Shown: positions 32,582-36,281 of the stretch, piece after piece
Position numbering within the stretch: position 1 is the stretch's first letter
Layout: every line of letters begins with the position of its first letter
Assembly: GCA_021787615.1 (NCBI GenBank)
Contig: JAJYLP010000028.1
Span: forward strand, 1-37,500
Length of the DNA: 37,500 bases
Source of the DNA: Pseudomonadota bacterium
GTDB taxonomy: Bacteria > Pseudomonadota > Gammaproteobacteria > Steroidobacterales > Steroidobacteraceae
Direction: 5' to 3'
Position numbers and translations under genes: made by a program
The notes under the pieces: generated by a model
Seen by the model: only the letters and a program-made list of their open reading frames with translations
Database searches by the model: none
What the model was told of the DNA's origin: nothing

Positions 32582-32995
32582 TCAAAGAGCGTCGGACCAA
32601 CGCCGCAACACGGCGCGCAGGGGCTCGTAGAAGGTTATGCCCACCCCCAGCACGACCCCGCCCCAGGCGATCGCCATCGGCGCGTACACGCCCAGATGCG
32701 CGTCCAGCCAGGGCATGGCGATCACGGCCGTGATGCCAGCCGCAAACGCCGCGCCGAGCAGTGTGACGAAAGTGCCGCGGCGGATCCGAACGTATTCCGC
32801 CTCCAGCGTCTCGAGCTGCTCGCGCCGCTCCCTCTCGAGCCGCGCACGCAGTGTGGCCAAGTCGGCTTCGGCACTACGGGACAACGCGGCATTCAGACGG
32901 GCGCGCAAGCTATGCGGGACTTGCGGCGCGCGCAGCGCACGTTCCAACGCGTCGTCGAGGCAACGATCGAACTCGGCCGGTTTGGGATTGGTCAC
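32582..32995 (-). CDS. Membrane protein coupled to ECF sigma factor, putative anti-sigma factor
   Basis: A 137-aa protein. Residues 1-40 form a helical, charged cytoplasmic region. A coiled-coil-like stretch (about 42-70: ADLATLRARLERERREQLETLEAEY) is followed by two membrane segments near 74-93 and 103-121. It starts at GTG 32995, whose GTGA overlaps the stop of the ECF sigma gene by 4 nt. Position and coupling are those of an anti-sigma factor, and a cytoplasmic domain joined to a membrane anchor fits. It has no zinc-binding HxxxCxxC motif and I do not recognise a named anti-sigma domain, so this role is inferred from context. Confidence 0.65.
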   Translation of the reverse strand: MTNPKPAEFDRCLDDALERALRAPQVPHSLRARLNAALSRSAEADLATLRARLERERREQLETLEAEYVRIRRGTFVTLLGAAFAAGITAVIAMPWLDAHLGVYAPMAIAWGGVVLGVGITFYEPLRAVLRRWSDAL

Positions 32996-33594
32996 GACAC
33001 ATCCTCCCGCCAGTAAGCCGGATCATCGAGGCCCCTGCGTTTCAACAGTTCACTGAGGGCTGCGCGACCCCGAAACAACGTGGTCTTCACCGTGCCCTCC
33101 GGGCAGCCGAGCATGCACGCCACCTCACTCACCGAGCGCTCCTCGTAGTAATAGAGGAGCAGCACGCGGCGCAACCGCTCCGGCAGCCGCTCTACCAAGT
33201 CGCGCAGTTGTTGCTCGCGTTCGTCCCACGGTTGGCGCGCTCCGGCCTGCGACGCCTGGGCGGTCTGCGGCGCCCCGTCCAGCTCATCCAGCGAGCCGAG
33301 CGTCCGCCGCCGCTGCAGCACCGTCAGGCAGCGGTTGCGGGTGATGGCATAGATCCAGCTCGAAAGCGCGGCCCGCCCGTCGTAGCGCGCGAGCGCCGTC
33401 CAGACTCGCACCAGGCTCTCCTGGGCGGCATCCTCGGCCTCGCTCCGGTCGCGCAGCAGCGCGCAGCACAGCCGGTAGACCTTGCCCTCGTATCGCGCGA
33501 GCAACGTCTCGAAGGCGCGCTCCCGCGCACCCGCGTGCAGCAGCGCCACGATGTCGCGATCCTGGCTCGTGTCCTCGCTTGCCGGCGCATGCAC
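32992..33594 (-). CDS. RNA polymerase ECF (sigma-70 family group 4) sigma factor
   Basis: A 200-aa sigma factor with only regions 2 and 4. Region 2 (about 27-95) contains LLARYEGKVYRLCCALLRDRSEAEDAAQES and the -10-reading LSSWIYAITRNRCLTVLQRRR. Region 4 (about 130-186) has LVERLPERLRRVLLLYYYEERSVSEVACMLGCPEGTVKTTLFRGR, a helix-turn-helix that reads the -35 element. The start is ATG 33594. Its promoter region and that of the divergent membrane protein share one architecture (TGAAAC, 19 nt, TATCAA), suggesting that it controls itself and that neighbour. The downstream gene overlaps it by 4 nt and probably encodes its membrane-bound antagonist. Confidence 0.93.
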   Translation of the reverse strand: MHAPASEDTSQDRDIVALLHAGARERAFETLLARYEGKVYRLCCALLRDRSEAEDAAQESLVRVWTALARYDGRAALSSWIYAITRNRCLTVLQRRRTLGSLDELDGAPQTAQASQAGARQPWDEREQQLRDLVERLPERLRRVLLLYYYEERSVSEVACMLGCPEGTVKTTLFRGRAALSELLKRRGLDDPAYWREDVS

Positions 33595-33649
33595 GCATCA
33601 CCCCCTGAGCGCCTCGGAGCGGCCCGCGCGGACAGTCCAGCCCCATAGC

Positions 33650-33680
33650 TTGATACCCCGGCGGCGCGGATCCGGTTTCA
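33650..33680 (-). promoter_or_regulatory. Candidate ECF-type promoter of the sigma factor operon
   Basis: Read on the minus strand, TGAAAC (33680 to 33675) is followed by a 19-nt spacer and TATCAA (33655 to 33650). The sequence around the second box is GGGGTATCAAGC. The same boxes with the same spacing occur on the other strand 17 nt away, facing the opposite gene. The predicted leader to the sigma ATG at 33594 is about 50 nt. Boxes of the GAAAC/TC type are usual for ECF sigma factors. Confidence 0.65.
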
Positions 33681-33696
33681 TTCGTTGCGCGGTTTT

Positions 33697-33727
33697 TGAA
33701 ACCCCCGGACAGCTTGCCGGGTATCAA
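33697..33727 (+). promoter_or_regulatory. Candidate ECF-type promoter of the DUF6249-type gene
   Basis: TGAAAC (33697-33702), a 19-nt spacer and TATCAA (33722-33727) repeat the architecture of the divergent sigma promoter. The extended second box GGGTATCAAGC (33719-33729) is the exact inverted copy of GCTTGATACCC at 33648-33658. The leader to ATG 33765 would be about 30 nt and contains the GGAGA ribosome-binding site. Confidence 0.65.
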
Positions 33728-33764
33728 GCGCGCAGGGCAATAATTTTTTCCGGAGAACTCATCC

Positions 33765-34247
33765 ATGTACATCCCAGGTCTCGGGCATCTCGGTACGGGG
33801 GCGCTGGCCATGCTCACTCCCATCATCGCCATCGTCGGCGCCTTCGCCACGGCGATGTTCGCCGTCTACCACAAGGTGCACAGACAGCGCGAAATGCTCC
33901 AGCTCTATCACGCCGAGCGCATGGCGGCGATCGAGAAGGGGATCGAGCTGCCGCCCCTGCCGGCCGAGCTCGTCAACGATCGTTCCTGCGGCTACGGCGG
34001 CAAGTACGACCCGGCCCGGCGCCGTTACCGGGGGGTCATGACGCTGCTGGTGGGCGTGGCGATCACGCTGGCAATGTGGAAGACGGGCCGGGACGACCAC
34101 TTCTGGTGGGGCCTGATCATCGTTGCGGTGGGCCTGGGGCAGCTGGTGATCGGAGTGCTGGAGCGCAGGGATCGGGCCGTGGATCCTCCCGGCGCGCCGC
34201 CGCCGGCGGGCGGGACTGGAAATTCCACGTTCCCGGGGCGCAGCTGA
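33765..34247 (+). CDS. DUF6249-type membrane protein, predicted ECF sigma target
   Basis: A 160-aa protein. An N-terminal membrane segment (about 14-34: MLTPIIAIVGAFATAMFAVY) leads into the family-typical HRQREMLQLYHAERMAAIEKGIELPPLPAEL. This short amphipathic element is followed by a polar loop, two further membrane segments (about 90-105 and 112-132) and a proline/glycine-rich tail. It resembles the DUF6249-type proteins often found beside ECF sigma genes; the function is unknown. ATG 33765 has CCGGAGA 8 nt upstream. It is transcribed divergently from the sigma gene, from a promoter that looks like the same sigma factor's target. A hairpin terminator follows at 34255. Confidence 0.8.
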   Translation: MYIPGLGHLGTGALAMLTPIIAIVGAFATAMFAVYHKVHRQREMLQLYHAERMAAIEKGIELPPLPAELVNDRSCGYGGKYDPARRRYRGVMTLLVGVAITLAMWKTGRDDHFWWGLIIVAVGLGQLVIGVLERRDRAVDPPGAPPPAGGTGNSTFPGRS

Positions 34248-35414: not shown

Positions 35415-35789
35415 ATGGCGACCACGGGTCAGCTCATCCGGCAACCGCGCCGAACGAGAACAGAGAAAACCAAGGTGCCCGCGCTTGGGGCCTCGCCCCA
35501 GAAGCGCGGCGTGTGCACGCGCGTGTACACCACCACGCCGAAGAAGCCGAATTCCGCCCTGCGGAAGGTGTGCCGCGTGCGCCTCACCAACGGCTACGAG
35601 GTGACGAGCTACATCGGCGGCGAAGGCCACAACCTGCAGGAGCACTCGGTGGTGCTGATCCGCGGCGGCCGTGTGAAGGACCTGCCGGGCGTGCGCTATC
35701 ACACCATCCGCGGCACCCTCGACTGCGCCGGCGTCGGCGAGCGCAAGCAGGGCCGCTCCAAGTACGGCGCCAAGCGCCCGAAGAAGTAA
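35415..35789 (+). CDS. rpsL: 30S ribosomal protein S12
   Basis: A 124-aa S12 of normal length. The decoding-centre loop [19 protein letters not shown] is intact, with Lys43 and Lys44. The second functional loop [13 protein letters not shown] has Lys88 and Asp89, the usual methylthiolation site. Residues linked to streptomycin resistance are therefore wild type. The first 18 residues ([17 protein letters not shown]) differ a little from E. coli. ATG 35415 is preceded by TTGGAGA. It is the first gene of the str operon; rpsG follows 12 nt after the stop. Confidence 0.99.

Positions 35790-36281
<492 letters not shown>

Follow-up and report, generated by a model that had tools for sequence, protein, structure and literature searches.

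Two divergent SigW-like ECF promoters predicted between a sigma factor gene and a DUF6249 gene in Steroidobacteraceae

In a genome of the Steroidobacteraceae, the gap between the gene of an ECF sigma factor and the divergently oriented gene of a DUF6249 protein carries the same pair of short boxes on both strands, and this raises the question of which regulator reads these boxes and how far its action extends beyond the locus. The window, that is the whole stretch of DNA analysed here (37,500 nucleotides), was compared with related genomes, and the favoured answer, to which a probability of about 0.85 is assigned, is that the gap contains two divergent SigW-like ECF promoters that would be read by the adjacent sigma factor and would activate its own operon, including a putative anti-sigma factor gene, together with the DUF6249 gene. 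In this way the sequence alone predicts which promoters a proteobacterial ECF lineage recognises.

Genes and boxes of the locus

The sigma factor gene (32992-33594, minus strand) encodes a protein of 200 aa with the domains PF04542 at residues 31-97 and PF08281 at residues 128-180; it scores 101.3 bits against TIGR02937 (cut-off 42.9) and consists of region 2 and region 4 only, joined by a short linker, which is the composition of an ECF sigma factor. The recognition helix GTVKT comprises residues 167-171. The following gene on the same strand (32582-32995), which shares its first 4 nt with the end of the sigma gene, encodes 137 aa with two hydrophobic stretches (74-97 and 102-121), and congeneric loci have such a gene in the same place after the sigma gene. 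Its position, together with the overlap and the hydrophobic stretches, makes the product a putative membrane anti-sigma factor. The 137-aa protein had no match in Pfam or NCBIfam and none in a profile search of solved structures (PDB), and its AlphaFold model is all helix with low confidence (pLDDT 69, pTM 0.27); class I anti-sigma factors are characterized by an N-terminal four-helix anti-sigma domain, often accompanied by transmembrane helices. Farther along the sigma strand are located the genes of a DUF1648/DUF5808 protein and of an S11-family D-Ala-D-Ala peptidase (PF00768), which scores 262.2 bits, below the cut-off of 294 of the D-Ala-D-Ala endopeptidase model NF008668; both are candidate members of the sigma operon.

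On the other side of the gap, the DUF6249 gene (33765-34247, plus strand) encodes a protein of 160 aa assigned to PF19762 (41.6 bits, gathering cut-off 33), which has hydrophobic stretches at about 6-38 and 112-134 and is probably a small membrane protein. Several of its homologues are attributed by NCBI to Steroidobacteraceae. The reading frames at 35415-36281 (plus strand) resemble ribosomal proteins S12 and S7, and the sigma module lies near an apparent str operon.

The gap contains TGAAAC-N19-TATCAA on both strands, facing outward, at 33650-33680 (minus) and 33697-33727 (plus), exactly as the original prediction had described. Comparison with related loci refined the conserved unit to TGAAACC-N15-GGGTATCAA. 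On the sigma side the -35 element TGAAACC is located at 33674-33680 and the -10 element GGGTATCAA at 33650-33658 (both minus strand), and on the DUF6249 side the same two elements occupy 33697-33703 and 33719-33727 (both plus strand). The AAC that is a general trait of the -35 box of ECF promoters is present on both sides; the canonical CGT in the -10 box is replaced by GGT here and in 16 aligned congeneric loci, which speaks against the favoured reading. According to excerpts of PMC8103513, the AAC/CGT pair was an early criterion that was later relaxed. A -10 box with CGT occurs in G010, G034, G041, and L049-L051, and the form CGTATCAA is found in related loci. Each promoter is also nearly palindromic, as the distal TGAAACC differs by one base from TGATACC, the reverse complement of the proximal box, so that each could conceivably also fire weakly in the opposite direction.

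It is hardly credible that the boxes are chance matches or promoters of the housekeeping sigma-70 factor. The TGAAAC/TATCAA pair had a mean of 0.00 occurrences in 100 shuffles of the window; without a preset motif, the best divergent and equally spaced pair of 7+9 boxes in the 170-bp gap matched at 16 of 16 positions, and the best pairs in 600 dinucleotide shuffles of the gap reached at most 14 of 16, none equalling the real pair. The earlier view that two copies with equal spacing exceed chance was thus borne out. A simple consensus scan of 33540-33800 gave 0 sigma-70-like sites, and the conservation of the boxes over many species refutes chance.

Conservation of the promoters and the inverted repeat

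A DUF6249 match is present in 26 of 99 genomes, the own genome included. The sigma gene, DUF6249, and the gap between them are all found in 21 of these (loci L003-L019, L021, L024, L025, and L026, own genome included), and promoters of this type are kept in 21 of 21; loss of the boxes in relatives that retain both genes, named in the original prediction as evidence against it, was not seen. In the remaining five, G014, G022, and G043 are apparently deleted through the gap, the locus of G038 is cut by contig ends, and G055 gives a partial match. The gap is apparently deleted also in G056, whose DUF6249 remnant is below the search length. The apparent deletions of the congeneric genomes G056, G014, G022, and G043 differ from one another. 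All four take away both promoters together with the beginning of the sigma gene, at least three also take the beginning of DUF6249, and remnants are left on both sides; the positions are about 4395 in L180, about 3911-3922 in L182, about 5973 in L183, and about 4373-4435 in L184. Either repeated natural loss or assembly collapse would account for them.

When the gaps of 16 congeneric loci are aligned, the main conserved islands are the two TGAAACC and the two GGGTAT(CAA) boxes, and on either side GGGTAT is the box nearer to the gene and TGAAACC the farther one. TGAAACC is kept in 15-16 of 16 loci per column on the sigma side and in 16 of 16 on the DUF6249 side; GGGTAT is present in 16 of 16 on both sides, and its CAA in 12-13 of 16 upstream of the sigma gene and in 16 of 16 upstream of DUF6249. 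This alignment does not include L015; there the box scan had mis-picked the sigma-side box, which was identified by eye and in the residue/base scoring and has GGTACTGC as its -10 element. The box scan covered the loci before L111 minus four duplicates (L001, L002, L029, and L030). All 17 loci from L003 to L019 have promoter-like boxes in front of the sigma gene, two of them with an altered -35 element. In the 16 congeneric loci the spacing inside the promoters is constant and the distance between the promoters ranges from 15 to 22 bp; in distant loci this distance ranges from 0 to 30, and a few of them (L043, L048) depart from the internal spacing by one base. In L044 a sigma-side box appears only if the spacer is shortened by one base.

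These data bear on the 11-bp perfect inverted repeat of the original prediction, whose arms GCTTGATACCC (33648-33658) and GGGTATCAAGC (33719-33729) are indeed 60 nt apart and 100% complementary. Each arm coincides with one of the -10 boxes, and the repeat does not stand as a separate feature: its outer GC is not part of the conserved unit, no more than 2 of the 16 congeneric loci have the same two bases after CAA in both promoters, and the distance between the arms varies. The repeat is rather a by-product of two like -10 boxes, because the spacing of the boxes is fixed while the distance between the promoters varies. The perfect repeat, the single-base difference between TGAAACC and TGATACC, and the fact that one promoter is also a reverse site with two mismatches could suggest an operator bound by a dimeric repressor or activator, formed either by the repeat or by each TGAAACC/GGTATCA near-palindrome. 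This reading, already disfavoured, is very improbable: the distance between the arms changes from species to species and that within the promoters does not, the outer two bases of the repeat are mostly discordant, the boxes keep the same orientation to the gene on both sides in the aligned loci, and the symmetry is missing in a lineage with TGCAACC and TATAA boxes. Judging from the alignment, the gap holds two promoters and not one palindromic operator.

The adjacent sigma factor as probable reader

SigW of Bacillus subtilis (PDB 6JHE, 5WUQ) provides a structural comparison. In the structure of its sigma4 domain on the -35 element, as described in excerpts of PMC6713349, A-34 is contacted by T168 and T171 and G-35 by R175, and K170 belongs to the residues with purine-specific contacts; the crystallised DNA contains TTGAAACC. 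The -35 box TGAAACC is common to the window promoters and to the DNA of 6JHE, and T168, K170, T171, and R175 are all kept at the aligned positions of the window sigma factor, which points to a -35 recognition of the SigW type; R172 is replaced by Thr. The -10 elements differ, being CGTATA in the SigW promoter and GGGTATCAA in the window. The window sigma factor remains under the SigW cut-offs, with 109.5 bits versus 209 for NF007223 and 94.8 versus 243.1 for TIGR02948, and does not qualify as a SigW orthologue. Among Bacillales, L056 and L072 exceed both cut-offs, and L075 exceeds that of NF007223 and is slightly below that of TIGR02948; upstream of their sigma genes TGGAAC (L056) or TGAAAC (L072, L075) is followed by N16/17-CGTA, so that these SigW loci have a matching promoter upstream of the sigma gene as the window does. 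The window locus differs in the second divergent promoter, which is predicted to drive DUF6249.

The two promoters of a locus change together. Their identity within a locus is 14.73 of 16 positions versus 13.69 with shuffled partners, a value reached by 0 of 20,000 shuffles (30 loci), and for 11 hand-picked lineage representatives it is 14.18 versus 12.82 (11 of 20,000 shuffles). The 30-locus test was made without L044, which has no clean sigma-side box at the usual spacing, L025 and L026, which have a tandem layout, and the deleted L023; L031-L040 and L042, copies of genomes represented in L003-L019, were left out of this test and of the residue count given below. The concerted change is evident in L045, L047, L052, and L064, in which TGCAACC occurs in 8 of 8 -35 boxes and TATAA in 7 of 8 -10 boxes, the exception being the DUF6249 side of L047 with TACAA. 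In this lineage the -10 box is followed after about 6 nt by the conserved start codon (ATG) of the sigma gene, so that a leaderless sigma mRNA is predicted.

The base at -34 varies along with residue 171 of the sigma factor. When the promoters were scored with this base left free, 92 rows were obtained, of which 85 were counted and 7 had a promoter score under 8. With Thr at residue 171, A is found at -34 in 60 of 68 rows (G in 6, C in 2); with Asn or Ser, C is found in 13 of 15, the other two being Ser rows with A; the two remaining rows combine Asp with A (L011) and Ala with T (L061). The boxes picked for L025 and L026 in this scoring are not their real promoters, and TGCAAC was taken for L072 and L076, in which separate inspection finds TGAAACC. 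The rows are mutually related and the correlation ignores kinship, and it is thus supportive and does not count independent events. Within this limit, residue 171 appears to track base -34 in line with the SigW/-35 crystal structure, a natural case in which one residue of the recognition helix and one base of the -35 element change together. A Ser beside C-34 is also described for SigZ in the excerpts of PMC6713349.

Phylogenetic footprinting, concerted change of the boxes, the correlation of residue 171 with base -34, and the SigW structure give good support to the original proposal of two ECF-type promoters that face outward, with the neighbouring sigma factor as their most likely reader. 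A different ECF sigma factor of the same cell, or several of them, might instead bind the boxes, the adjacent sigma gene being a target and not the reader. Two observations fit this: AAC in the -35 box is an ECF trait in general (PMC8103513, in excerpt), and G003 and G011 retain a perfect DUF6249-side promoter next to a sigma gene that appears to be disrupted. In G011 (L010) this gene is split over frames with a stop, and in G003 (L011) the frame is open but region 4 matches at only 19 of 55 positions, compared with 40-55 in the other 16 of the loci L003-L019, and looks as it would after compensating frameshifts. The perfect DUF6249 promoters of these two genomes are contrary to a dependence on this sigma factor only, unless the loss is recent or due to an assembly error. 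The only altered sigma-side -35 elements of the 17 loci, TGAGACC in L010 and TGAAGCC in L011, are located at these same two sigma genes, a coincidence with a chance of 1 in 136 that was noticed after the fact and suggests linked decay. This speaks against another reader, as do the co-variation of both promoters with the lineage and residue 171 of the adjacent sigma factor, and the fact that the promoters go with the locus, with 5 one-mismatch sites outside it in 58 genomes; on balance, a reader encoded elsewhere is unlikely, and the adjacent sigma factor is preferred.

Reach of the motif and the predicted circuit

In the whole assembly (3,734,033 bases in 176 contigs), TGAAAC/TATCAA with spacers of 17-21 nt occurs only at the two sites of the gap, and the reversed control of the same pattern gives 0. 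With TGAAACC-N16-SGTATYAA and at most two mismatches, the own genome yields both promoters, one of them also read backwards, and one other site, compared with 2 for the reversed control. In 58 congeneric genomes at most one mismatch gives 42 sites, of which 37 are at this locus (20 genomes, 17 with both promoters) and 5 elsewhere; the reversed pattern gives 1, a pattern with one extra spacer base 7, and the reversed control of the latter 10, so that the off-locus sites are near the control level. The idea that the boxes furnish a usable genome-wide motif for a regulon was consequently not sustained, no convincing extra target emerging either in the own genome at up to two mismatches or in the congeneric genomes at one. 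The bare hexamers with two mismatches give 40 matches versus 16 for the reversed control, an excess that makes weaker extra targets of the sigma factor possible. SigW has a broad regulon; in contrast, the strong sites of the window sigma factor are nearly all local.

The analysis shows the boxes and that they are conserved, regularly spaced, co-varying, and nearly confined to the locus; the reader, the inhibitor role of the 137-aa protein, an envelope signal, the start sites, and DUF6249 as an output are inferred, the inhibitor, signal, and output following the general ECF model as outlined in excerpts of PMC8103513 and PMC7406223. Upon an envelope signal, the inhibitor, most likely the 137-aa membrane protein of the overlapping gene, would release the sigma factor; RNA polymerase with the freed sigma factor would then read both TGAAACC-N15-GGGTATCAA promoters, raising the expression of the sigma operon itself in a positive feedback loop and turning on the small membrane protein DUF6249. 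With strong sites nearly confined to the locus, the result would be a nearly self-contained circuit with two outputs.

Autoregulated operons of ECF sigma and anti-sigma factors share with the window an overlapping gene for a small, probably membrane, protein after the sigma gene, and AAC at -35; positive feedback is expected, according to excerpts of PMC8103513. The window differs from them in that the anti-sigma role is only putative and that the motif singles out one locus, in which DUF6249 is the partner. The locus, with divergent promoters that match each other at an ECF sigma gene and are conserved in relatives, adds a well-supported case to an arrangement already known. In searches of the open-access literature, no paper connected the TGAAACC motif with a sigma factor, judging by titles and the beginning of abstracts, and none was found on TGAAAC; judging from the listings, DUF6249 came up only in a paper on plant genes, and the query on autoregulated ECF factors with divergent promoters returned unrelated papers only.

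The uncharacterised family DUF6249 is thereby tied to ECF signalling as a testable target. In a class-wide sample, DUF6249 matches are present in 9 of 370 genomes, and an ECF-like gene lies within 1.5 kb in 10 of 12 loci, the own one included (one of the ten is weak, E 0.002). This would fit a role of DUF6249 as a dedicated partner of ECF systems rather than as one of many effectors; the fuller idea, a near single-locus ECF circuit with two strong targets in which such a partner serves as output or as membrane feedback element, is put forward tentatively, its odds being somewhat short of even. Apart from the own locus, the class-wide sample contains 11 DUF6249 loci, none of which has the motif at 12 of 13 positions or more; one (L171) matches at 11 of 13, and the promoter type therefore does not follow DUF6249 everywhere.

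A variant layout is observed in G034 and G041, in which DUF6249 and the sigma gene share a strand; in G041 a similar protein of 139 aa comes next. In G041 (L026, 2281-2889, plus strand) the twin promoters face a gene of the UrcA family (TIGR04433, 81 bits) on one side and the DUF6249-sigma operon on the other; G034 (L025, from 1534, plus strand) has the same layout with a closely similar protein at the position of the UrcA-family gene, which suggests a second kind of target.
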